In this document: positions 18,817 to 30,899 of the stretch, in pieces
Layout: each line of letters begins with the position of its first letter
How positions within the stretch are numbered: the first letter of the stretch is position 1
Assembly: GCA_011053145.1 (NCBI GenBank)
Contig: DRLC01000308.1
Location: 1-33,000 of the forward strand
DNA from: Planctomycetota bacterium
GTDB lineage: Bacteria; Planctomycetota; UBA1135; GCA-002686595
Reading direction: 5' to 3'
DNA: 33,000 bases
Made by a program: the position numbers and the translations under genes
Notes under the pieces: model-generated
Told to the model about the DNA's origin: nothing
Databases searched by the model: none
What the model saw: the letters and a program-made list of their open reading frames with translations, nothing else

Positions 18817-19824
18817 ATGGAACATGGGCTGGGCCGTGTCGGCGTCGGGCTCGTGCTGCTCCTCGCCGGTTCCTGTCAGAGCGCTCCCGAGCCGGGCGTC
18901 TACACGTTCGTTTTCGAGAACGATGTCTTCGCCCATGTGGACAGCAACTACACGAATGGGGTCGGGCTGTCCTGGGTGTCTCCGGTGACCGCTCCTTCCG
19001 GCGACGGAACCTTTCTGGAGCGGATCGTCGACCGGGCCTCGTTCCTTCCCGGGGTGGGAAGCCCCGACCGGGAGCACCATGTGGGCTTTCTCTTCGCGCA
19101 GGAGATGTTCACGCCCGACGACATCACGATCCCCAATCCCCCGCGCACCGATCGTCCCTACGCCGGAGTCCTCCTCTTGGACACTTCCGTCTTCGCGCGC
19201 GACGAGGACTCGATGCACACCTGGACGCTCAAGCTGGGCGTCGTCGGCCCGCCCGCCCTCGCGGAGGAAACCCAGACGATCGTCCATCGGTGGATCGGCT
19301 CGAACAAACCGGAGGGATGGGACCACCAGCTCCACACCGAGCCCCTGGTGAACCTGAACTACGCCTACGACCGTCGGATCGTCGAGACCGAGGTTCTGGG
19401 CCTCGAGTTCGACCTGACCTCGAACGTCGGGGGAGCGTTCGGCAACTACGCGATCTTCGCGAACACCGGAGTCGCCCTGCGCTGGGGTCGCAACCTGACC
19501 GACAGCTATGGAACGCAGTCCCTTCGGGCCGGGACCCAAAGCAACTCGGTGGTCTTGACACCTCCCGCGAAGCCGTTTGGCTGGAACCTCTTCGTCGGCA
19601 CCCAGGGGTTCCTTGCCGGACGCTTCCTCCCCCAGGACGGCAACACCTTCATCGACAGCCGCGGAGTCGACACGGAGACGCTGGTCGGTTCGGCGAGCTT
19701 CGGCTTCGTGGTGAACTACAAACGCGTCCTGATGACGGTCTCCTTCACCGCCTTCAGCGATACGTTCGAAGGCCAGAAGCAGGCGATGGAATACGGTTCG
19801 TTCCTCCTGACCTGGTCGCCCTGA
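18817..19824 (+). CDS. LpxR-family outer-membrane lipid A deacylase-like protein (DUF2219)
   Basis: The 335-residue protein has an N-terminal signal sequence ending near GSC at residue 20, either a signal peptidase I site or a weak lipobox (LAGSC). Mature LpxR-type signatures follow: FVFENDVFAHVDSNYTNG (Asn35, Asp36), DRPYAGVLLLD, and the GWDHQLHTEP segment with Gln, His and Glu where the LpxR active site lies. The remainder alternates in beta-barrel fashion and ends MEYGSFLLTWSP. In Salmonella LpxR removes the 3'-acyloxyacyl group of lipid A. Here the substrate is an inference. It starts 4 bases after carA and ends 31 bases before the end of convergent priA. Confidence 0.87.
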   Translation: MEHGLGRVGVGLVLLLAGSCQSAPEPGVYTFVFENDVFAHVDSNYTNGVGLSWVSPVTAPSGDGTFLERIVDRASFLPGVGSPDREHHVGFLFAQEMFTPDDITIPNPPRTDRPYAGVLLLDTSVFARDEDSMHTWTLKLGVVGPPALAEETQTIVHRWIGSNKPEGWDHQLHTEPLVNLNYAYDRRIVETEVLGLEFDLTSNVGGAFGNYAIFANTGVALRWGRNLTDSYGTQSLRAGTQSNSVVLTPPAKPFGWNLFVGTQGFLAGRFLPQDGNTFIDSRGVDTETLVGSASFGFVVNYKRVLMTVSFTAFSDTFEGQKQAMEYGSFLLTWSP

Positions 19825-19855: not shown

Positions 19856-22156
19856 TCAAAGCATCGAGACCGGATCCACGTCCACCTTGACCCGTACCCG
19901 GGACTCGGTCGCGGCTCGGTCGGCGAGCCAGCGGACGACGTCTCCGAAGCCCTCGTCATCGAGCCTGGCCTTGAGCAGGAGGTGCACGCGGTGGCGGCCG
20001 CGCAGGAGCGAGAGCGGAGCTGGAGCGGGGCCGAGGATCGAGAGGCCGCGGGCCTCGGCGAGGACACCGAGTTCACGACCGACGAGGTCGGCGAGTTCCT
20101 CGACCCGCTCCAGCGACTCGTCCTCGAAGACGATGCGCACGAGACGTCCGTGGGGCGGGTAGCCGAGTTCCGCACGCAGCCGGGACTCGCCCTGGGCGAA
20201 GCGCGTGAAGTCCGCCTTCGAACCGAGCTGGATCGCGGGATGTTCCGGGGAACGCGTCTGCACGACGATCCGGCCGGGGCGCTCCCCGCGCCCCGCTCGG
20301 CCGGAGACCTGGGCGATGAGTTGGAAGGTGCGCTCCGCGGAACGAAAGTCCGGTAGGTGCAGAGCAGGGTCGGCCGAGACGATCCCGACCAGAGTCACGC
20401 GCGGAAAATCGAGCCCCTTCGCGATCATCTGGGTCCCGACGAGCACGTCGACCTCATGGCGCTCGAAGGCACCCAGGACCTCTTCGTAGTCCGCGCGACG
20501 ACGCATCGTGTCCGAGTCCATACGGCGCACGCGCACCTCGGGAAAGAGCTTCTGGAGCACGCTTTCCACGCGTTCGCTCCCCATTCCGAGGAAGCGCAGT
20601 CCCGGGCGCGAGCAGATCGGGCAGGCCGGTGGCACCGGCTTCTCCTCACAGCAGCCGTGGCAGACCAGTCGTTCGATCCGGCGGTGGAAGGTGAGGCCCA
20701 CGTCGCAGTGCTCGCAGCGCAGGGTCTCCTTGCAGCCCGGGCAATAGAGCACGGGCACGTAGCCGCGCCGGTTCAAGAACAGGATCGCCTGCTCCCCCGC
20801 GGCGATCGTTTCCTCGAGGAGTTGCACGAGCAGGCGTGAGAAGAGCGGATCGGCGCCACGGCTCCCGCGCTCTCCGCGCATGTCGACCACGTGCACCTTC
20901 GGCTCCGTGCCGCCGCCGACGCGCTCCGGAAGCGAAAGGCGCTTGTACTCCCCTGCTCCCGCTTTGGTCCAGCTCTCGAGGGACGGCGTCGCCGAACCGA
21001 GCACGCACACCGCGCCCGCGCGCCGCGCCCGCTCGACCGCCACGTCCCGCGCGTGGTAGCGAGGCGTCGTCTCCTGCTTGAAGGAAGGCTCGTGCTCCTC
21101 ATCCACGACGACGATTCCGAGATCCGCCACGGGTGCGAAGATCGCCGAGCGTGCACCGACCACGACCCGCACCTCGCCGCGTTTGAGCCGTTTCCAGCTC
21201 TCGAGCCGCTGTGCGTCGGTGAGTCCGCTGTGCAGGACGCACACGTCGCCGAAGCGCGAACGAAACCAAGCCACGGTCTGGGGCGTGAGCGCGATCTCCG
21301 GCACGAGCAGGATCGCGGAGCGCCCCCGGGCGAGTGCCTCCTCGATCCCGCGCAGGTAGACCTCGGTCTTGCCGCTCCCGGTCACGCCTTCGAGCAAGAA
21401 GGTGCGATGCTCGCGCGCCTCGATGCGGGCGCGGATGTGCTCGATGGCCGCGTTCTGGCGTGCGGAGAGCTTCGCGGGGCGCGCCCGCTCAGCGGCGGAG
21501 GAGACCGGCTCTTCCACGTCCGCGTCCACGGATTCGATGCGCACGAGTCCCTGGCGCTCCAGGGTTCGGGCGGGGGACTCGGAAAGGTTCAGCCGCCTCA
21601 ACGCATCGCGCAGCTCGATCGGCTCGCCGAGCTCCATCAGGAAGCGCAGCAGGCGGTGGCGTTTCGGGGCGGCATCCGAGAGCTTCGCGAGTTCCGCCGG
21701 ATCGATCCCCTCCACGGCCGCGATGCGCCGAACCTTCTTCGTGCCGCGTTCGCGCTTGAGCGACGCCGGGAGGGCGGCCCCTAGGGTCTCGCCCCAGGAC
21801 GCTCCCCAGCGGTCGGCGATCCAGTGCGTGAGCTCGAGCAGCTCCGCATCGAAGACGGGCTCGTCGCCGAGCAGGTCCAGGACCGGCTGGATCCGGCCGG
21901 ATGGGACCGAACACTCGTCCTCGAGGCCGACGACGACGCCGACGTGCCGGCGTCCCGCGAAGCGCACGGCGACCCGGCACCCGACACGGATCCGCTCCTC
22001 GAGCGGGTCGGGAATGCGGTAGGTGAACTCACGCCGAATCGGTCTCTGCACGGCCACGCGACAGAACGCTCCCCGGACCGGCTCGGCCGGTTCGTCGGCC
22101 TCGGCCGATCCGAGATCGAAGAGCGTCTCGGCCTGGGGTCGCGCGCGCGGGGTCAC
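19856..22156 (-). CDS. priA: Primosomal protein N' (replication restart helicase PriA)
   Basis: The 766-residue protein is full length for PriA. After a DNA-binding N-terminal region (VQRPIRREFTYRIPDPL) come the helicase motifs: Walker A GVTGSGKTEVY with Lys263 and the DEEH box at 352-355. The zinc-binding insert contains eight cysteines (YCPGCKETLRCEHC, VCHGCC, CPIC). The helicase C-terminal motifs include GTQMIAKGLDFP and QVSGRAGRG. PriA reloads the replisome at collapsed forks. The start is GTG, 6 bases after the mazG-like stop, so it is the last gene of the long minus-strand operon. Confidence 0.97.
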   Translation of the reverse strand: MTPRARPQAETLFDLGSAEADEPAEPVRGAFCRVAVQRPIRREFTYRIPDPLEERIRVGCRVAVRFAGRRHVGVVVGLEDECSVPSGRIQPVLDLLGDEPVFDAELLELTHWIADRWGASWGETLGAALPASLKRERGTKKVRRIAAVEGIDPAELAKLSDAAPKRHRLLRFLMELGEPIELRDALRRLNLSESPARTLERQGLVRIESVDADVEEPVSSAAERARPAKLSARQNAAIEHIRARIEAREHRTFLLEGVTGSGKTEVYLRGIEEALARGRSAILLVPEIALTPQTVAWFRSRFGDVCVLHSGLTDAQRLESWKRLKRGEVRVVVGARSAIFAPVADLGIVVVDEEHEPSFKQETTPRYHARDVAVERARRAGAVCVLGSATPSLESWTKAGAGEYKRLSLPERVGGGTEPKVHVVDMRGERGSRGADPLFSRLLVQLLEETIAAGEQAILFLNRRGYVPVLYCPGCKETLRCEHCDVGLTFHRRIERLVCHGCCEEKPVPPACPICSRPGLRFLGMGSERVESVLQKLFPEVRVRRMDSDTMRRRADYEEVLGAFERHEVDVLVGTQMIAKGLDFPRVTLVGIVSADPALHLPDFRSAERTFQLIAQVSGRAGRGERPGRIVVQTRSPEHPAIQLGSKADFTRFAQGESRLRAELGYPPHGRLVRIVFEDESLERVEELADLVGRELGVLAEARGLSILGPAPAPLSLLRGRHRVHLLLKARLDDEGFGDVVRWLADRAATESRVRVKVDVDPVSML

Positions 22157-22458: not shown

Positions 22459-23823
22459 TCAGGGCTCGCGGCGGACGGTGACGAGCGAGATGTCACGGTC
22501 GAGACCATCGGGACCCGCGAAGGTTTCCAGGTCGCGCCGCAGACTCTTCAGGAAGTCCGTGGTCTCGAGCTCGCCGTGCTTGAGCACGCGCGCATAGAAC
22601 GCCTTCTCGCCGAGTTCCCGACCCTCCGGGTTGTGCAATTCTACCGGCCCCGCGTTCGAGAGCAGGAAGCGATCCCCGGGCTCGATCGGCGTCTCGACGA
22701 GCTGGATGCTGCGATCGAACACCGGGCCCTTGTCGAAGCCGAGAGCGATCCCCTCGGGGTGGACGACCCGGATCGCCCCCTCGGTGGCATCGAAGCGCAG
22801 GAGCGGCACGCGGTGACCAGCGCACAGGACCTGGGCGCGACCGACCGCTGGATCGAGGAGGGCATAAAGGGCCGTCACGTACATCCCGGGCCGGATGTCG
22901 CCGTGGAGCCAGCGGTTGACCCTTCGGAAGGCTTCGACCGGGTCTTCGCAGCGCTCGAGTTCTCCGCGCAGGTACGACCGAGCGGTTGCGCCCACGAGCG
23001 CGGCGGGGATGCCGTTCCCGCTGACGCCGCACACCAGGAGACCCAGCGTCCCGTCCGCGCGTTCGATGAAGTCGTGGAAGTCGCCACCGAAGTCCGGTCC
23101 CGCGAGGAACGCCGCGCCCACGTCGAAGCCGTCGAGCATCGGGGTCGCGAGCGGGAGCAGGGCCTCACGGACCCCGGCCGCGACCTCGCGCTCGCGCTTT
23201 CGGATCGAAAGCTCCACCTCGGCTCGCCGCGCCTCCTCGAGATCCGCACTCATGCGGTCGATCGAACGCGCCAGGAGTTCGATCTCCCCTTCGCCGCGCC
23301 CCGTCGTCCTTCGCTTGAGCTCCCCCTTCGCGATCCGCCGGACGTCCTCGATCAGAGCGAGAACGGGCTTGGTCACCTTCCCCGCGACCCAGTAAGACAC
23401 GGCCGCTCCGACGAGCACGACGACGGTCAGAACAGCGACGAGTAGGCGCAGGAGGTCCGAAGCACCGGTCTCGGTATCCGGGACCCACAGCTCGGCCTTC
23501 CCGAGCGGATCCTCGGCATCCCCATAGGTGTAGACGGTCCCCTTCTTCCCGTCGCGGTAGGTGAACTCCTGGATGCGTACGCCGCTCCTGTGGAGGAACC
23601 CCCCGGGCTTCTTCCGGGTCGGGGGAACGTCGCGGCTGAAGCGCACGGCCTCGCTGAAGGCGGTGGTCATGCGGTTCTCGCTGATGCGCGACAGACCGCT
23701 GTAGAGGAGCCCACCCGTGATCCCGAGCACCACGGTCAGCGCGATCGTCATCGACAGCGCGAAGCGCGCCCCGAGCCCGAGCCCCTTCAACCGCAGGTCG
23801 CCGTCGGAGCGTTGCCGGCTCAT
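22459..23823 (-). CDS. HAMP / SpoIIE-type PP2C phosphatase-like membrane protein, probably inactive
   Basis: The 454-residue protein has membrane helix 1 at about residues 22-42, an extracytoplasmic sensor of about 80 residues, helix 2 at about 124-146, a HAMP segment, a short coiled coil, and a SpoIIE/RsbU-type domain from about 215. The domain's GGDF motif is present (Asp248) and a late Asp444 (RDISLV) is kept. The aspartate of GDVSG is Gly266 (VCGVSGNG), and the aspartate of the TDG motif is Ala391 (SNAGPVELHN). Two of four canonical metal ligands are therefore missing. It may be a pseudophosphatase that binds rather than dephosphorylates. It overlaps pgpA by 4 bases. Confidence 0.88.
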   Translation of the reverse strand: MSRQRSDGDLRLKGLGLGARFALSMTIALTVVLGITGGLLYSGLSRISENRMTTAFSEAVRFSRDVPPTRKKPGGFLHRSGVRIQEFTYRDGKKGTVYTYGDAEDPLGKAELWVPDTETGASDLLRLLVAVLTVVVLVGAAVSYWVAGKVTKPVLALIEDVRRIAKGELKRRTTGRGEGEIELLARSIDRMSADLEEARRAEVELSIRKREREVAAGVREALLPLATPMLDGFDVGAAFLAGPDFGGDFHDFIERADGTLGLLVCGVSGNGIPAALVGATARSYLRGELERCEDPVEAFRRVNRWLHGDIRPGMYVTALYALLDPAVGRAQVLCAGHRVPLLRFDATEGAIRVVHPEGIALGFDKGPVFDRSIQLVETPIEPGDRFLLSNAGPVELHNPEGRELGEKAFYARVLKHGELETTDFLKSLRRDLETFAGPDGLDRDISLVTVRREP

Positions 23824-24311
23824 ACCGCGTGCACCCAGGCCCCGGGCTCGAGCACGAAGAATCGCAAGAGGGTCATCACGAGGAGCCCATAGACCCCGGC
23901 GACGACGTCGTCGAGGAGGATTCCGTCCCCACCCCCGATCGCTTCGAAGCGCTTCACGGGCGGAGGCTTTGCGATGTCGAAGAAGCGGAACACGAGGAAA
24001 GCCACGACGAGCGCGGTCAGGCTAGGGGGACGTACCCAGAGGATCGTGACGAGGTAACCGATCACCTCATCCACGACGAAGAAGCCGGGATCCTTGCCTC
24101 CCGCGTACGCCTCGGCCCATTCTCCGAGGGAGCGCCCGATGGCGTAGAGCAGGGTACAGGCCACGAGGACCGCAACCGGGAAGCTCCAACCCGCCTGCAC
24201 GAAGAGCCATGCGAGCAGAACCCCGCCGAGGGTTCCGAAGGTCCCGGGGGCCACGGGGGCGAGCCCGAGGAATCCGAAGGTCACGAAACCGAGTTTGAGG
24301 ATCCGGGCCAT
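23820..24311 (-). CDS. pgpA: Phosphatidylglycerophosphatase A
   Basis: The 163-residue membrane enzyme dephosphorylates phosphatidylglycerol phosphate, the step after PgsA. Characteristic segments are APVAPGTFGTLGG at residues 18-30, DPGFFVVDEVIGYLV in the middle, and FFDIAKPPPVKRFE followed by GGDGILLDDVVAGVYG. Several hydrophobic helices alternate with these. I chose the ATG at 24311, which lies 4 bases after the pgsA stop. An in-frame start at 24365 would overlap pgsA and add 18 unrelated residues. It is coupled to the next gene by an ATGA overlap. Confidence 0.95.
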   Translation of the reverse strand: MARILKLGFVTFGFLGLAPVAPGTFGTLGGVLLAWLFVQAGWSFPVAVLVACTLLYAIGRSLGEWAEAYAGGKDPGFFVVDEVIGYLVTILWVRPPSLTALVVAFLVFRFFDIAKPPPVKRFEAIGGGDGILLDDVVAGVYGLLVMTLLRFFVLEPGAWVHAV

Positions 24312-24315
24312 CGGC

Positions 24316-24954
24316 TCATTCCCCTCCCCGGTCGGCGCCGAGGATGCGAGCGGTTCGGCGCACATAGGAGATGCCCGACCCGAGGGTCGCGACGACGGTC
24401 ACCCAGACGAAGAGGTGTCCGAGAAACTCGAGCGGGCCGCGCAGGACATCCGGCCACGGAAAGGAGAACAAGCCGAGCACGATCCCGATCGCGATGCACT
24501 GCACGATCATCTTCACCTTGCCGAACCAGTCCGCTGGAAACTCGAGTCCGAGACTCTCGATGTAGCCACGGATGCCGGTCACCAGGAACTCGCGCGCGAC
24601 GACAACGACGACGACCCAAGCGGGAAACCACTCGCGGGACCACGGCAGCACGGCGAGGAAGACCATCGTCCCGATCACCATGACCTTGTCGACGAAGGGA
24701 TCCGCGATGCGACCGAACGCGGTCACGTGGTTTCCGCGTCGGGCGAGGTAGCCGTCGAGGAAATCAGAGGCCGCGATCAGGAGGAAGAGCCAGAAGGCGG
24801 CCTGCACGACGGCCGAGGGGCCGGGCCCCTCGATCTCCCCGAAGAGGGCCAGGAGCAGGAACAAGAGCAGGGAGCCCGCGAATCGCATCGCGGTGATGCG
24901 GTTCGGCCAGTACTTGAAGATCCCGTCCCTCCTGTCCTTCGCGGCCACGCCCAT
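24316..24954 (-). CDS. pgsA: CDP-diacylglycerol--glycerol-3-phosphate 3-phosphatidyltransferase
   Basis: The 212-residue integral membrane enzyme makes phosphatidylglycerol phosphate. The CDP-alcohol phosphotransferase signature is complete: Asp64, Asp67-Gly68, Ala71-Arg72, Gly81, Asp85 and Asp89. Several membrane helices follow, and a basic C-terminus ends in RRTARILGADRGGE. The ATG at 24954 (MGVAAKDRRDG) precedes the usual cytoplasmic N-terminus WPNRITAMR; a longer frame upstream is low-complexity and antisense to rimO. It lies 82 bases after rimO and 4 bases before pgpA, so synthesis and dephosphorylation of the lipid are encoded together. Confidence 0.95.
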   Translation of the reverse strand: MGVAAKDRRDGIFKYWPNRITAMRFAGSLLLFLLLALFGEIEGPGPSAVVQAAFWLFLLIAASDFLDGYLARRGNHVTAFGRIADPFVDKVMVIGTMVFLAVLPWSREWFPAWVVVVVVAREFLVTGIRGYIESLGLEFPADWFGKVKMIVQCIAIGIVLGLFSFPWPDVLRGPLEFLGHLFVWVTVVATLGSGISYVRRTARILGADRGGE

Positions 24955-25036
24955 GGCGGGTGAGGATACTCGGGGCCGCGCGGCTGCCGGAGCGAAATCG
25001 GGTCGCCGCGCGGGCTCGAGGCCCGGCGGCGGGGAG

Positions 25037-26392
25037 TCACTCGGCGAAGAGAGCGAACCCGTCCTCGGCGCCCGCCGCACCGTGCACGCGGACCTGGATG
25101 CGCTCTCCAACCTGCACCCCGGACGCCCGCTCACCCGAGACCACGACGAGCGGGTCCACCTCGGGGGCGTCCCGGTCGGTCCGACCCACGAGGCGCCGGG
25201 CACCCTCCCCCGCGGTGTGGACCTCGTCCACGAGGACCTCGATCTCCTCGTCGACGCGAGCCTCCTGGGAGGCCGTGATCACGCGGTCTCGCTCGGCGAG
25301 GACGGCGGCAACCCGCTCGGCCGCGTCGGTCTCGGAGACCGCCCCGCCGAGCTCGAAAGCCGGCGTGCCCTCCTCGTTCGAATACGCAAACACCCCCATG
25401 CGACCGAGCCCGTAGGTCCGGACGAAGGAGACCAGCTCCTCCACGTCGGCGTCGGTCTCGCCGGGAAAGCCGACGAGCAGGGTCGTGCGCAGCGTGATTC
25501 CGGGAACCTCCTCGCGCAGGCGATCGAGAGTGCGACGCACCTGGTCACCGCTCCCGGCGCGCCCCATCGCACGCAGGACCGGCGTGGCGGCATGCTGAAC
25601 GGGAATGTCCAGGTAAGGCAGCACGCGCTCGTGGTCCCGTAGGAGTGCGGTCAGCGCCCAGGGAAAGCGATTCGGGTACGCGTACATCACGCGCAGACGG
25701 TGGTCGCCGGGGAGATCGGCGAGGGCCTCCACCAGGTGCGGGAGCTCCAGTCCGAGATCCCTCCCCCACGCGGTCGAGTCCTCGGCGACCAGAACGAGCT
25801 CGCGCACCCCCGCGTCGATCAGCTCTCGTGCCTCTTCCTCGAGGACCGCCACGCTCTTCGATCGGTGCGGGCCGCGGATCGACGGGATCGCGCAGAACGT
25901 ACAGGCGTGATCGCAGCCATGGGAGATGCGCAGGTACGCGTAGGAACCCGGGGTCGCTAGGAGGCGCGCCCCCTCACCGCCGGGCTCGCGCAACCCGCTC
26001 GCGGCGAGGTAGCGCGGAACGCGAGCCCCAGCCCCCAGTTCGCGTACCGAGCGTGCCAGCTCGCGGTAGTCGGAAATCTCCGCGAAGAGGTCCACCTCAG
26101 GGAAGCGCTCCTCGAGATCGTGCTGGAAGCGCTGGACGAGGCAGCCGGCGACGACCACCGCGCGAAGCGCACCGCGCCGCTTGCGTTCCAAGAGCGAGTC
26201 GATCGCTTCCTCCGACTCCTTGCGCGCCGGCCCGATGAAAGAGCAGGTGTTGAGGACGGCAACGTCGGCTCCCTCGAGATCCCCGGCGACACGGCACCCC
26301 TCCTCGGCCATGCGCGCGAGGATCAGCTCGGAATCGATCAGGTTCCTGGCACACCCGAGATGAACGAGGGTGACGGTGACGGGTGCGCTCAC
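25037..26392 (-). CDS. rimO: Ribosomal protein S12 methylthiotransferase RimO
   Basis: The 451-residue radical SAM enzyme methylthiolates an aspartate of ribosomal protein S12. The N-terminal UPF0004 domain supplies Cys14, Cys50 and Cys84 for one iron-sulfur cluster. The radical SAM cluster is bound by Cys160, Cys164 and Cys167 (GCDHACTFCAIP). YLDIPVQHAATPVLRAMGR and LLVGFPGETDADVEEL are typical of RimO rather than MiaB. A TRAM domain forms the C-terminus. The start is GTG. It lies 33 bases after the motorless FtsK-like gene. Confidence 0.95.
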   Translation of the reverse strand: MSAPVTVTLVHLGCARNLIDSELILARMAEEGCRVAGDLEGADVAVLNTCSFIGPARKESEEAIDSLLERKRRGALRAVVVAGCLVQRFQHDLEERFPEVDLFAEISDYRELARSVRELGAGARVPRYLAASGLREPGGEGARLLATPGSYAYLRISHGCDHACTFCAIPSIRGPHRSKSVAVLEEEARELIDAGVRELVLVAEDSTAWGRDLGLELPHLVEALADLPGDHRLRVMYAYPNRFPWALTALLRDHERVLPYLDIPVQHAATPVLRAMGRAGSGDQVRRTLDRLREEVPGITLRTTLLVGFPGETDADVEELVSFVRTYGLGRMGVFAYSNEEGTPAFELGGAVSETDAAERVAAVLAERDRVITASQEARVDEEIEVLVDEVHTAGEGARRLVGRTDRDAPEVDPLVVVSGERASGVQVGERIQVRVHGAAGAEDGFALFAE

Positions 26393-26425: not shown

Positions 26426-28336
26426 TCAGGAAGTCTGAAGAACTTCCGACTCGAGTTCGCGCCACTCCTCCATCGTGAGGAGGATCTCCCGGTTCCGGCC
26501 TCCGATGTAGGGACCGATCAGGCCGAGCTCCTGGAGGTGATCGAGGAGTTCGCACGCCTCGTCGAAGTCGATCGTGAAGCGGCGTTGGAGCATCGAAACC
26601 GCGACCCGATTCTCCTCGAGGATCAGGAGTCCGGCCTCGAAGATGCGAGCGCGAACGGGGTCGGAGGCCTGCGGGGCCGAAGCGGGCTCGGGCTCGGGGG
26701 CGGGCGCCTCGGCCTTCACGGGAACCAACGTGTCCGAGGCATCTGCGGCGGTCTCTTCTCGATCCGCGGTGGCGGCCGCCTCGGCATCCGAGGAGGAGAG
26801 GGCGTCGAAGAGCCCCATCTGCTCGACGCCCGTGGGGCGCGGGACGTCCCGCTCCTCGAGCTCTGCGTCCGGCTCCTCTTCGGGCTCGACCTCCTCCTCA
26901 TACTCCTCTTCGTCTTCCTCCTCTTCCTCGAGTTCGGCGGCCAACTCCTCTTCCGGCTCGGCCTCCTCCTCGTACTCCTCTTCGGCTTCTTCCTCTTCCT
27001 CGAGTTCGGCAGCCAACTCCTCTTCAGGCTCGGCTTCCTCCTCGTACTCCTCTTCGGCTTCTTCCTCTTCCTCGAGTTCGGCAGCCAACTCCTCTTCAGG
27101 CTCGGCCTCCTCCTCGTACTCCTCTTCGGCTTCTTCCTCTTCCTCGAGTTCGGCAGCCAACTCCTCTTCGGGCTCGGCCTCCTCCTCGTACTCCTCTTCG
27201 GCTTCTTCCTCTTCCTCGAGTTTGGCAGCCAACTCCTCTTCGGGCTCGGCCTCCTCCTCGTACTCCTCTTCGTCTTCCTCCTCTTCCTCGAGTTCGGCGG
27301 CCAACTCCTCGTCGGGCTCGACCTCCTCCTCGTACTCCTCTTCGTCTTCCTCCTCTTCCTCGAGTTCGGCGGCCAACTCCTCGTCGGGCTCGACCTCCTC
27401 CTCGCACTCCTCGTCCTCTTCCTCGAACTCGGCGGACTCCCAGGCGGGAGCGGGGGGAATGAGAACGCCGTGTTCCGGCTCCCCGAGTCGGGAGGGTTCC
27501 GGGAGGTTCGAGGCGACCGCGGGGGCATCGGCCTCCTCTTCCGTCGCCTCCTCGACCGACTCCCATTCGGGAGCCAGATCCGGCTCAGCGAGTTCCGCAA
27601 CTACGGGCTCGGGTTCGGTCTCCCGATCGAGTTCCGGTCCTCCATCGGAAGCGGCATCGCCTCCGCGCTCTGGATCGACTTCGAGGGGCTGTGCACCGGC
27701 GGGAACTCCGCCGTGGGTCCGCACGTCCGCAGCGGGCACCGGTGCGCTCGGGGCGGGGGTCGCGGGGGGCGGCTCCGGCTGCAAGGCCATCGCTTCCGCT
27801 GCGGAAACCCCGTCCGATGAGACGCGACGCGGCGGAACGAGAGCACTCGGGACCAAGGGGTCGGGGGAGACGGATCGGACGTTGCCACCCCAGACGCCGA
27901 TCACCGTGCCGATCAGCAGCGCGGCCCCGACGATCAGGCCCAGAATCCATCCCGCGGTTCCACCGAGCAGGGACGGCAGGATGCCGCCGATCTTGCCGCC
28001 CGTGTCGGGAAAGATCCCACCGAGGATCAGGGACACCCCGATCGCGAGGCCGATGATTCCCAGCGCGTGACGCGCCGAGGGAATCGCATCGGGGCGCAGG
28101 AAGAGTGCCAATCCAAGCCCCGCGACACCGAGCGCCAGGACGAGACCGGGTGCCGACCCGATCGCGTTGACGAGCCAGCTCACGGGCATCGTCACCGGGC
28201 TCTGGGAGACCTGCCCGCGAAGATGCAGGAAGATCGAAACAGCGGCAAAACCGAAGAGCCCAAACAGGATCAATCCGAGGATGTCCTGGCTCGGGGACTT
28301 GCGGTCGTTTTCGGAGTCAGAGGTGCGGTTACTCAT
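26426..28336 (-). CDS. Motorless FtsK-like membrane protein (TM helices, acidic repeats, gamma domain)
   Basis: This 636-residue protein has four hydrophobic segments at about residues 18-39, 52-80, 90-109 and 116-150. A Pro/Glu-rich linker then contains seven 24-residue acidic repeats. Residues 559-624 form a winged helix like FtsK gamma: SMLQRRFTIDFDEACELLDH, then GLIGPYIGGRNREIL. The layout is that of FtsK without the alpha/beta ATPase, and there is no Walker A or B motif. In the recognition helix, GYTRASRLID of the neighbouring FtsK corresponds to DFDEACELLD here, replacing the key basic residue with Glu. The gene overlaps the end of ftsK by 8 bases. A role as an FtsK partner, or in binding a recombinase, is inference. 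Confidence 0.85.
   Translation of the reverse strand: MSNRTSDSENDRKSPSQDILGLILFGLFGFAAVSIFLHLRGQVSQSPVTMPVSWLVNAIGSAPGLVLALGVAGLGLALFLRPDAIPSARHALGIIGLAIGVSLILGGIFPDTGGKIGGILPSLLGGTAGWILGLIVGAALLIGTVIGVWGGNVRSVSPDPLVPSALVPPRRVSSDGVSAAEAMALQPEPPPATPAPSAPVPAADVRTHGGVPAGAQPLEVDPERGGDAASDGGPELDRETEPEPVVAELAEPDLAPEWESVEEATEEEADAPAVASNLPEPSRLGEPEHGVLIPPAPAWESAEFEEEDEECEEEVEPDEELAAELEEEEEDEEEYEEEVEPDEELAAELEEEEEDEEEYEEEAEPEEELAAKLEEEEEAEEEYEEEAEPEEELAAELEEEEEAEEEYEEEAEPEEELAAELEEEEEAEEEYEEEAEPEEELAAELEEEEEAEEEYEEEAEPEEELAAELEEEEEDEEEYEEEVEPEEEPDAELEERDVPRPTGVEQMGLFDALSSSDAEAAATADREETAADASDTLVPVKAEAPAPEPEPASAPQASDPVRARIFEAGLLILEENRVAVSMLQRRFTIDFDEACELLDHLQELGLIGPYIGGRNREILLTMEEWRELESEVLQTS
26852..27403 (-). 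repeat. 72-bp in-frame tandem repeats (7 full copies plus one partial)
   Basis: Seven 72-base units fill 26900-27403, followed by a 48-base partial unit to 26852. Each encodes a 24-residue motif of the form EEEAEPEEELAAELEEEEEAEEEY. Copies 1-2 share Val/Asp variants, copies 3-6 are nearly identical, copy 3 has Lys for Glu, and copy 7 reverts to Asp. The copies differ by few synonymous changes, which suggests expansion by slippage or unequal crossing-over. Confidence 0.93.
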
Positions 28337-30899
28337 GGTTGGCGCCTTCGATTGCAGCCTGATTCTCTTCCCAATCCTCCAGGCTCATCAGCACTTCACG
28401 GGCCTTGCTGCCCTTGTGTTCCCCGACGATACCTTCCGCGGTCGTGATGTCGATGAGGCGGGAAGCTCGCGTGTAGCCGATGCCCAGCGCGCGCTGCAGC
28501 AAAGAGGCCGATCCGCGGCGCGACTTGAGGATCACGCGAACCGCCTCGTCGAACAGCTCGTCCTGGTCCGCCCCCCCCTTGACTTGGCCCGCCTGGGGGG
28601 TGCCCGTGGCCGCCTGGGCCAGCTCCTGACTGAAGTTCGGAGCCGATTCCTGGGACACGAAGTCCACGATCGCCTGGATCTCGCTGTCCTCGATGAGCGC
28701 TCCCTGGACCCTGCGGATCAGCGAGGACTGCGGGGGGTTGTAGAGCATGTCGCCCTGCCCCAGCAGCTTCTCCGCGCCCATCGTGTCGAGGATCACGCGG
28801 CTGTCGACCTTGCTCGCGACCTGGAACGCGATCCGCGTCGGCAGGTTGCCCTTGAGGACGCCGGTGATCACGTCGGTGGAGGGACGTTGGGTCGCGACGA
28901 TCACGTGGATGCCGACCGCGCGCGACTTCTGCGCCAGGCGCGTGATCGACTGCTCGGCCTCCTTCTTGGAGGTCATCATGAGATCTGCCATCTCGTCGAT
29001 GACGATCACGATGTAGGGGACGTGGCGCGGGGTGCGCACCTCGTTGAACTCTTCCCCCATCTTCTTGCGGAGCCCTTCTTCACCGAGCTTGTTGTAGCCC
29101 GCGATGTTGCGCACGCCGGCCTTGCGGAAGAGCTCGTAGCGGCCCTCCATCTTCTCGCAGGCCCAGAGCAGAACGTTCGTCGCCTGGCGCATGTCGCTCA
29201 CGACCGGCAGCATCAGGTGCGGCACGTTCGAGAACATCTGCATCTCGACCATCTTCGGGTCGACGAGGATGAGCTGGACGTCGTGGGGCGAGCGCGTCAG
29301 CAGCAGGCTCGCGAGAATCGTGTTGATGCAGACCGACTTGCCCGATCCGGTGGTTCCGGCGATCAGGAGGTGCGGCATGCGGGCGAGGTCCTCGATGATC
29401 GCGTTGCCCTCGGCGTCCATCCCGAGGAAGAGCGGGAGCGCGGCGAAGCTCTTGTCGTAGGCCCGCTGGCTGACGAGTTCTGAAATACGCACCGTGCGAC
29501 GCTTCTCGTTCGGCACCTCGATCCCGATCGTCGCGCGGCCCGGGATCGGCGCGATGATGCGCACGCTCTTCGCCCGCAACGCGGCGGCAATTTCCTGGCT
29601 GAGCTGGGTGACCTTGTTCATCCGGGTCCCCTGCTCCACCTCGAGCTCGAACATCGTCACGGCCGGGCCGACCTGGGCTCCGACCACCTGGGCACTGACG
29701 TTGAATGCGCTGAGGGCGTTCTCGAGCCGAGAGGCCTGGTTCTCGATCGCGCCGACATCATCCGCGCCGGCCTGGTGCGGCGGTGAGAGGAGATCCATCG
29801 GCGGCAGCTTCCAGGGCCCCGGCGGCGGTGTCGGAGGCTCGAAGGGCATGGTCGCCTGGGCCGCGGCGCGCACGGGCTTGCGCGGCTTCTTCGCCGCGGG
29901 CTCGGGGACGACCTCTTCGTCCTCGGGCTCCTCGTCGGGCTCCTCCTCGTACTCCTCGTCGTCGTCTTCCTCGTCCTCCTCGTACTCTTCCTCTTCGTCC
30001 CAGAGCTCTTCTTCGTCTTCCTCCTCCTCGTCGTCCTCTTCCTCCTCGTCGAAGAGTTCGGGCTCGGGCTTCTTCTTCGCCGCCTTTTTCGGAGTCGACT
30101 TCGACGGAGCGGCCTTCGGCTTCTCCTCCCCGATGTCCCCTCCTCGCAGGAAGTTCCAGAGTCCCGCGACGAGCCGCCCCAGCCAGGCGAACACCGCGCC
30201 GACGGTGCTCTCGCGCTCCGCACGCTCCTCTCGCCACTCGCGGAATGCAGCGAATGCCGGGTAGAAGGCCATCTCGGTCGCCAACATGAACGAGATCAGC
30301 GCGGCGAGGGAGCACAGGATCCACAGCCCCGGACCGCCGAGCTTCTCGACCAGAAGCGGCGGCACGCGGTCGCCGTTCACGCCGGGACCGGCGAGCTCGA
30401 GAGCCAGGTAACCGCCCGGCCCGTAGTCGAGGTTCAACCCGTAACGCCCACCGAACGCGAGCTCCAGGAGGAACGAGCTCGAGAGCAGGAAGAGCGCGCC
30501 GCCGAGCAACCGAACGAGGGGCAGGTGAACGTGCTTGCGCGCCACGAGCACGACGCCCCAGGCCGTCGCGAGGAACACGAGGAAGTACCCCGCCCAGCCC
30601 ATCGCCGCATAGACCCAGAACGCGAGGTAGCGCCCGGCCTCGCCTCCCCAGTTGCCGCCCGGGGCCTCGCCCCCGGATTCGGAGCGCGGCCCGAAGGATA
30701 CGAGCGACAGGAACAGCCAGGCCGCAAAGCCCAAGAGCGCGAGCCCCTTGATCTCCTGGAAGTGCTCGGAGGTCTCCTCCGAACGCTCCTCTCCGTCCCC
30801 GAACACCGCGAAGAGGCCGCGCAGCCGCTCGCCGAGGCTCGGTCCCTTCTTCCGCTTGGAGCGGGATCCGCCGCGCTTCTTCCTCTTCTTCTTCGCCAT
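28329..30899 (-). CDS. ftsK: DNA translocase FtsK
   Basis: The 856-residue protein has a very basic N-terminus (MAKKKRKKRGGSRSKRKKG), about four or five membrane helices in residues 45-250, an acidic linker (about 280-340), and then the motor. Walker A is GTTGSGKS at about 512-519 and Walker B is IVIVIDEMADLM near 633. ATQRPSTDVITGVLKGNLP is also typical. The gamma winged helix at about 775-850 contains SASLLQRALGIGYTRASRLID, where Thr replaces the usual Asn of GYNRA. FtsK pumps chromosome termini through the closing septum and activates Xer recombination at dif. It is the first gene of a long operon. Confidence 0.97.
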   Translation of the reverse strand: MAKKKRKKRGGSRSKRKKGPSLGERLRGLFAVFGDGEERSEETSEHFQEIKGLALLGFAAWLFLSLVSFGPRSESGGEAPGGNWGGEAGRYLAFWVYAAMGWAGYFLVFLATAWGVVLVARKHVHLPLVRLLGGALFLLSSSFLLELAFGGRYGLNLDYGPGGYLALELAGPGVNGDRVPPLLVEKLGGPGLWILCSLAALISFMLATEMAFYPAFAAFREWREERAERESTVGAVFAWLGRLVAGLWNFLRGGDIGEEKPKAAPSKSTPKKAAKKKPEPELFDEEEEDDEEEEDEEELWDEEEEYEEDEEDDDEEYEEEPDEEPEDEEVVPEPAAKKPRKPVRAAAQATMPFEPPTPPPGPWKLPPMDLLSPPHQAGADDVGAIENQASRLENALSAFNVSAQVVGAQVGPAVTMFELEVEQGTRMNKVTQLSQEIAAALRAKSVRIIAPIPGRATIGIEVPNEKRRTVRISELVSQRAYDKSFAALPLFLGMDAEGNAIIEDLARMPHLLIAGTTGSGKSVCINTILASLLLTRSPHDVQLILVDPKMVEMQMFSNVPHLMLPVVSDMRQATNVLLWACEKMEGRYELFRKAGVRNIAGYNKLGEEGLRKKMGEEFNEVRTPRHVPYIVIVIDEMADLMMTSKKEAEQSITRLAQKSRAVGIHVIVATQRPSTDVITGVLKGNLPTRIAFQVASKVDSRVILDTMGAEKLLGQGDMLYNPPQSSLIRRVQGALIEDSEIQAIVDFVSQESAPNFSQELAQAATGTPQAGQVKGGADQDELFDEAVRVILKSRRGSASLLQRALGIGYTRASRLIDITTAEGIVGEHKGSKAREVLMSLEDWEENQAAIEGANHE

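Follow-up and report, generated by a model that had tools for sequence, protein, structure and literature searches.

The window, a 33,000-nucleotide stretch of Planctomycetota DNA that was analysed as a whole, carries on its minus strand a run of genes in the order ftsK, a gene for an FtsK-gamma protein, rimO, pgsA, pgpA, X, a mazG-like gene and priA (Table 1). The start of X and the stop of pgpA overlap by 4 nt (ATGA). A preliminary description of this DNA had located X between phospholipid synthesis and priA, and this position next to pgsA-pgpA was confirmed, with the mazG-like gene intervening before priA. Protein X has two hydrophobic stretches that flank a small extracytoplasmic part, followed by a HAMP domain and a degenerate PPM/SpoIIE domain. 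The match to PF07228 scored 97.1 bits against a cut-off of 25 (E 1.7e-27), which places X in this family, and the PPM fold starts near residue 225, before the start of the Pfam match. The predicted arrangement of two helices, HAMP and degenerate PPM domain agrees with the earlier suggestion that X may be a pseudophosphatase with a membrane sensor.

Table 1. Features of the X locus, with positions in the window. SpoIIE and SiaA residues are the aligned equivalents.
Feature	Position	Strand	Basis
LpxR-type outer-membrane protein match	18817..19824	+	PF09982, E 9.7e-87
priA	19856..22156	-	Pfam; order conserved in relatives
mazG-like gene, 94 aa	22163..22447	-	PF03819, E 2.8e-10
Protein X, predicted HAMP-SpoIIE/PPM pseudophosphatase, 454 aa	22459..23823	-	ORF with ATG start; Pfam
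Degenerate PPM/SpoIIE domain of X, residues 257-452 (Pfam match)	22468..23055	-	PF07228; fold match 201-454
Arg443 (CGT) in place of the metal Asp of the DD motif (SpoIIE D795, SiaA D653)	22495..22497	-	Codon and alignment
Ala391 (GCG) in place of the TDG Asp (SpoIIE D746, SiaA D600)	22651..22653	-	Codon and alignment
Residue 338 of X (AGHK/AGHR position)	22810..22812	-	
Cys334 of X	22822..22824	-	
Gly266 (GGC) in place of the M1/M2-bridging Asp (SpoIIE D628, SiaA D474)	23026..23028	-	Codon and alignment
Cys265 of X	23029..23031	-	
Asp248 (GAC), retained GGD ligand (SpoIIE D610, SiaA D457)	23080..23082	-	Codon and alignment
HAMP domain of X, residues 145-197	23233..23391	-	PF00672, E 1.9e-8
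Transmembrane helix 2 of X, about residues 119-150	23374..23469	-	Kyte-Doolittle; AF2 model helix 120-165
Transmembrane helix 1 of X, about residues 15-44	23692..23781	-	Kyte-Doolittle; AF2 model helix 17-65
pgpA, phosphatidylglycerophosphatase A	23820..24365	-	PF04608
pgsA-type CDP-alcohol phosphatidyltransferase	24316..24963	-	PF01066
rimO-type radical SAM methylthiotransferase	25037..26392	-	PF04055, PF00919, TRAM_2
FtsK-gamma protein, 636 aa	26426..28336	-	FtsK_gamma, E 6.4e-12
72-nt tandem repeat in the FtsK-gamma gene	26873..27424		7.7 copies, 95% match
ftsK	28329..30899	-	

Some features of the surrounding genes were also recorded. The mazG-like protein ends in a C-terminal tail rich in cysteine (CPRCEKTPCACG). 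The FtsK-gamma protein, whose gene adjoins that of the true FtsK, has FtsK_gamma as its sole Pfam match, with no match to the motor domain, and the tandem repeat in its gene encodes an acidic Glu-rich repeat. The gene for the LpxR-type protein faces the priA end of the operon.

The metal ligands of X were assigned by comparison with two characterized phosphatases. PMC3517971 and PMC5468089 give Asp628, Asp746 and Asp795 as the M1 ligands of SpoIIE, and Asp610, Asp628 and the carbonyl of Gly629 as its putative M2 ligands; for SiaA, the conserved aspartates named in PMC7647112 are D457, D474, D600 and D653. A profile alignment places the latter in GGD, at the Asp of GVVDC, in TDG and at the first Asp of DDIT, respectively. 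In X, GDVSG reads CGVSG and TDG reads NAG (Asn390-Ala391-Gly392, AAC-GCG-GGG). These two substitutions, to Gly266 and Ala391, had been noted before and are real, as read directly from the codons. The preliminary description had, however, counted only two lost aspartates and regarded Asp444 as the surviving last metal ligand, which is wrong. When X is aligned by profile with SiaA (PDB 6k4e), Asp444 (GAC) pairs with the second Asp of the DD motif and the ligand pairs with Arg443. Because the metal ligand in this motif is the first Asp, three of the four ligands are gone in X, and the third loss had been missed. X thus has no equivalents of the SpoIIE M1 ligands; of the M2 set Asp248 is kept but the aspartate at position 266 is lost.

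We then compared X with its relatives. Its own genome and 60 relatives were searched; each of the 61 contained a match, and the best match was used from 55 of them. The omitted six were the f6 genomes (G041, G045, G049, G052, G055 and G058), in which the best matches were weak (2.0e-14 to 6.5e-25). The TDG Asp was absent at 55 of the 55 loci first compared, the window locus included, although two of these (L052 and L054) are partial and stop short of the first two motifs; the consistency of this loss led us to reject a pseudogene or sequencing error as its cause. A contig scan added 80 loci of Planctomycetota-type or unclassified-bacterium origin, with some contigs overlapping the first set, and such loci were present in the complete genomes Pla163, Pla86 and Poly30. 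Four of the 80 (L131, L133, L137 and L139) have all four aspartates, and the sequence GIALGFDKGP is common to them and the dead ones. A phylum search covered 294 genomes, 212 of which gave E <= 1e-40, and revealed many further loci with all four aspartates. Fifty-five phylum loci and five class loci were fetched; six of the former proved to belong to the pseudophosphatase group (L205, L209-L212 and L214), and L205, nearly identical to L136, was omitted. After removal of near-identical sequences, the final set comprised 102 pseudophosphatase sequences, 55 canonical sequences and 5 paralogues, where the canonical 55 may include some paralogues; neither a kinase or STAS gene nor an upstream marker accompanies L215, L216, L217 or L221.

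All four ligands are kept in 55 of 55 canonical sequences. The TDG Asp, also present in 55/55 of these, is found in 0/102 pseudophosphatase sequences, so the losses exceed chance. Asp occurs at the position equivalent to 443 in 2/102 versus 55/55; seventeen different residues are seen there among the 102, including Glu in eight. Position 444 is Asp in 94/102, and both aspartates of the DD motif are present in the 55 canonical sequences. Asp248 is retained in 85/102. Position 266 is Asp in 41/102 and Glu in 27/102, and is non-acidic in 32 of the 100 pseudophosphatase sequences that have a residue there. The recurrence of the losses in orthologues, which the preliminary description had suggested checking, was therefore observed. 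That description had also named as its refutation an alignment in which other acidic residues fill both metal positions, and none was found. A misalignment that hides a substitute acid was rejected, since Asp or Glu is present at position 443 in 10/102 and at position 391 in 1/102, and no sequence restores both.

Phylogenetic analysis was used to determine how often the site was lost. The motif columns were excluded from both trees. In a tree of 91 sequences (50 pseudophosphatases), the pseudophosphatases fell on one side of one branch, corresponding to one change (SH-aLRT 97). In a more careful tree of 55 sequences (30 pseudophosphatases), from which the long branches L055, L215 and L221 were omitted, they formed a clade with bootstrap 100 and SH-aLRT 97, and a single change was obtained in 100% of 200 bootstrap trees. 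Rooting on canonical SpoIIE paralogues makes the direction of this change a loss. Independent losses in many lineages were rejected because the trees need one change. The history of the M2 aspartate at position 266 is patchier: the residue is Gly, His, Ser, Ala or Thr in early-branching pseudophosphatases, Asp or Glu in most members of the family to which the window belongs, and Gly in X and its nearest relative (L002). The sequence record indicates that the metal site was lost once, long ago, in one large Planctomycetota branch, together with both adjacent partner genes that are described below.

The domain without its ligands has been maintained by purifying selection. From 15 close pairs of pseudophosphatases, dN/dS over the last 250 residues could be computed for 14 and ranged from 0.02 to 0.31 (Nei-Gojobori). 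Thirteen positions are at least 90% conserved in canonical sequences and less than 50% conserved in pseudophosphatases, and nine of them (266, 270, 389, 390, 391, 395, 441, 443 and 445) fall within or beside the three lost motifs. In both groups alike, 32 positions stay at least 85% conserved. The N-terminal sensor is poorly conserved. An AF2 model of X built from 51 sequences (mean pLDDT 90.3, with the PPM part mostly at 92-98) predicts a complete PPM fold, and fold matches agree. The best was SiaA-PP2C (Z 27.2, rmsd 2.7, 241 residues aligned), followed by Rv1364c (Z 27.1), SpoIIE (5ucg, Z 23.9) and RssB (Z 23.2), with Foldseek in agreement; the model of a canonical orthologue was weaker (pLDDT 77.8, 16 sequences). 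Catalytic residues have been released and the scaffold kept, the pattern that a pseudoenzyme, but not a decaying gene, should show. X combines a PPM fold under selection with loss of the metal ligands, as a pseudophosphatase does. The freely varying catalytic residues and the strong divergence of some members (L055, branch 2.66) would also fit slow decay of a gene that is carried along in a housekeeping operon while losing its function. We consider this highly improbable given the dN/dS values over the dead domain, the 32 positions conserved in both groups and the absence of internal stops from the ORFs at 55 loci from 61 genomes. The earlier statement that X is not a decaying pseudogene was borne out by the same dN/dS values, the intact predicted fold and the conserved scaffold. 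Catalytic death and retention of X are well supported by these sequence comparisons.

The gene neighborhoods of the two groups differ. Both lie downstream of rimO-pgsA-pgpA; pgsA, pgpA or rimO was detected upstream in 73/75 pseudophosphatase loci and in at least 28/42 canonical loci, the latter being a lower bound because window proteins were the queries. At canonical loci the next genes encode an RsbW-type ATPase (PF13581) and a STAS protein (PF01740). Profiles built from this canonical kinase and STAS protein were used to scan up to 3 kb downstream on the same strand, for which four canonical and three pseudophosphatase loci were too short. STAS was found in 41/51 canonical loci, the kinase in 32/51 and either in 42/51, compared with neither in any of 99 pseudophosphatase loci, which lack the partner-switching module at this site. 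Instead, mazG or priA was downstream in 74/77 pseudophosphatase loci versus 0/42 canonical loci, and mazG alone was the downstream neighbor in 83/99 versus 0/54. Whole-genome searches for the partners in 48 chosen genomes (36 of the pseudophosphatase clade and 12 canonical) gave a similar result. The best E values for the operon STAS were 3.7e-28 or lower in 12/12 canonical genomes, and none was below 4.8e-10 in the 36 pseudophosphatase-clade genomes, six of which had no match. For the operon kinase, E values were 1.2e-16 or lower in 12/12 canonical genomes and no match was found in 22/36 of the pseudophosphatase clade, but the separation is incomplete, as one genome of this clade (G169) reached 2.1e-17. 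Since the co-loss of the partners is one event on the tree, the association was given no p-value.

The preliminary description had suggested that X sequesters an anti-sigma-factor antagonist. As a general role this was not supported and sequestration of STAS proteins was rejected: no kinase or STAS gene lies beside X in the 99 loci, and four relatives (G028, G038, G040 and G054, all incomplete assemblies) keep X without any PF01740 match. Within the window's own genome such sequestration is possible. The dead domain would keep its docking surface and hold a phosphorylated anti-sigma-factor antagonist encoded elsewhere, in competition with the active-looking GAF-SpoIIE protein beside the sole STAS protein. 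That genome has exactly two SpoIIE domains, the dead one of X and that of a GAF-SpoIIE protein in which the four aspartates are all present, as well as one STAS match and one free-standing kinase-like match (at C14). Some PF01740 match is present in 57/61 genomes, and, according to PMC11418112, SpoIIE and RsbU dock their substrates through loops on the surface, apart from the metal ligands. We nevertheless regard a decoy function as distinctly unlikely, in view of the four relatives just mentioned, the six of 36 pseudophosphatase-clade genomes that have no operon-STAS match, and the character of the STAS protein in the window's genome, whose similarity to the operon STAS is weak (E 4.6e-4, 22% identity) and which has its own neighboring phosphatase. 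This STAS match (L056, G000:C381:2400-7500) is in a longer protein that is encoded divergently from the complete GAF-SpoIIE. A STAS match near a SpoIIE match on the same contig is also seen in several relatives, G032:C11 and G011:C17 among them.

Residues that persist or have newly appeared around the former active site were considered next. Asp248 occurs together with Asp or Glu at position 266 in 57/102 pseudophosphatase sequences, and many relatives of X could still hold one M2 metal; in these 57, such a metal along with some odd catalysis is conceivable. The additional loss of Asp266 in the window's lineage makes even a lone M2 metal unlikely there. Two cysteines that adjoin former active-site motifs in X, Cys265 and Cys334, occur together in 55/102 pseudophosphatases versus 0/55 canonical sequences and may form a remodeled metal or redox site. 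Taken with Asp248, Asp/Glu266 and His337, they raise the idea of an altered enzyme that has retained or regained a metal or thiol site of a different kind and either catalyzes some other reaction or, like PHLPP2, binds zinc. According to PMC12002173, PHLPP2 is a pseudophosphatase that contains a single zinc ion, and TAB1 carries one manganese in the M2 site. We give this idea little credence, because Asp266 is missing in X, a non-acidic residue occupies position 266 in about a third of the pseudophosphatases, and the cysteines are not strictly paired (Cys265 accompanies Ser334 in 13 sequences). A more speculative reading is that X was rewired to housekeeping functions of its present operon: after one-step conversion in a whole deep branch of the Planctomycetota, with the kinase and STAS protein discarded, the HAMP-gated dead domain would bind and control the MazG-like protein or PgsA-PgpA phospholipid synthesis, perhaps via a recast Cys265/Cys334 metal or thiol center. 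We view this as unlikely overall, and an obligate pairing of X with MazG is weakened by the 16 of 99 pseudophosphatase loci that have no mazG next door.

The reading that we favor, at a probability of about two in three, is that X is an ancient pseudophosphatase derived from the RsbU-like enzyme of a partner-switching operon and now serves as a HAMP-gated binding or adaptor module. X probably acts by binding something instead of by catalysis, and by analogy adaptor action is the likeliest mechanism. The ancestral Planctomycetota operon would have had the order rimO-pgsA-pgpA-phosphatase-kinase-STAS. The canonical loci retain this gene content and intact motifs, and the ancestral membrane-bound HAMP phosphatase would have dephosphorylated the adjacent STAS protein. 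In one lineage the M1 site (the TDG and first DD aspartates) was lost once along with the operon kinase and STAS protein, and mazG and priA, as the gene order suggests, came to lie downstream in the same lineage. The dead protein may now be retained as a signal-output module. In this family, helices alpha1 and alpha2 switch the PPM domain in response to a coiled linker from the sensor, and in E. coli RssB this switch outlives catalysis and serves an adaptor role, as reported in PMC12143880. By analogy with RssB, a periplasmic or membrane signal could pass in X through HAMP and the coiled linker to the switch helices, which would bind or release a partner in place of positioning metals.

RssB, a pseudo-phosphatase adaptor for sigma-S degradation, is also similar to X in having a PPM-fold domain without catalysis that originated from an active phosphatase whose relatives adjoin an rsbV-type gene (PMC12143880). 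However, RssB carries a response-receiver domain and its PPM domain is truncated at the C terminus, whereas X has a full-length domain and a HAMP membrane anchor, and point substitutions account for its inactivation throughout a wide clade. SiaA of the P. aeruginosa SiaABC pathway shares with X the two membrane helices, HAMP and PPM domain (PMC7647112), but is a Mg-binding enzyme with all four aspartates that dephosphorylates SiaC; X has the architecture of this SiaA-like HAMP-PP2C class and not its four catalytic aspartates, and no STAS or kinase gene lies alongside. B. subtilis SpoIIE and RsbU are of the same Pfam family and fold, and canonical orthologues of X sit in an RsbU-RsbW-RsbV-like gene set; X differs from SpoIIE in its M1 site, as described above. 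PHLPP2 and TAB1 resemble the X group in that M1 was lost in an ancient conserved lineage and the M2 ligands are kept in many members (PMC12002173), but their domain architectures and hosts are unrelated, and the zinc or manganese binding known for them is not known for X.

The PPM pseudophosphatases already known are the eukaryotic PHLPP2 and TAB1 and the truncated bacterial RssB, and a search of the open-access literature found no paper on a Planctomycetota PPM pseudophosphatase. X adds a full-length, membrane-bound bacterial case that appears to stem from a single ancient event and whose catalytically complete orthologues occupy the same position in the genome. The record of the change is clear, the kinase and STAS protein having been lost with catalysis and mazG and priA having come in, and it offers a natural experiment in which a phosphatase switch turned non-catalytic. 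For PF07228 genes in these bacteria, the ligands should be checked before annotation as phosphatases. One further difference was seen in the AGHN motif, which has Asn in 52/55 canonical sequences and reads AGHK or AGHR in 84/102 pseudophosphatases, so that this conserved motif has gained a positive charge.
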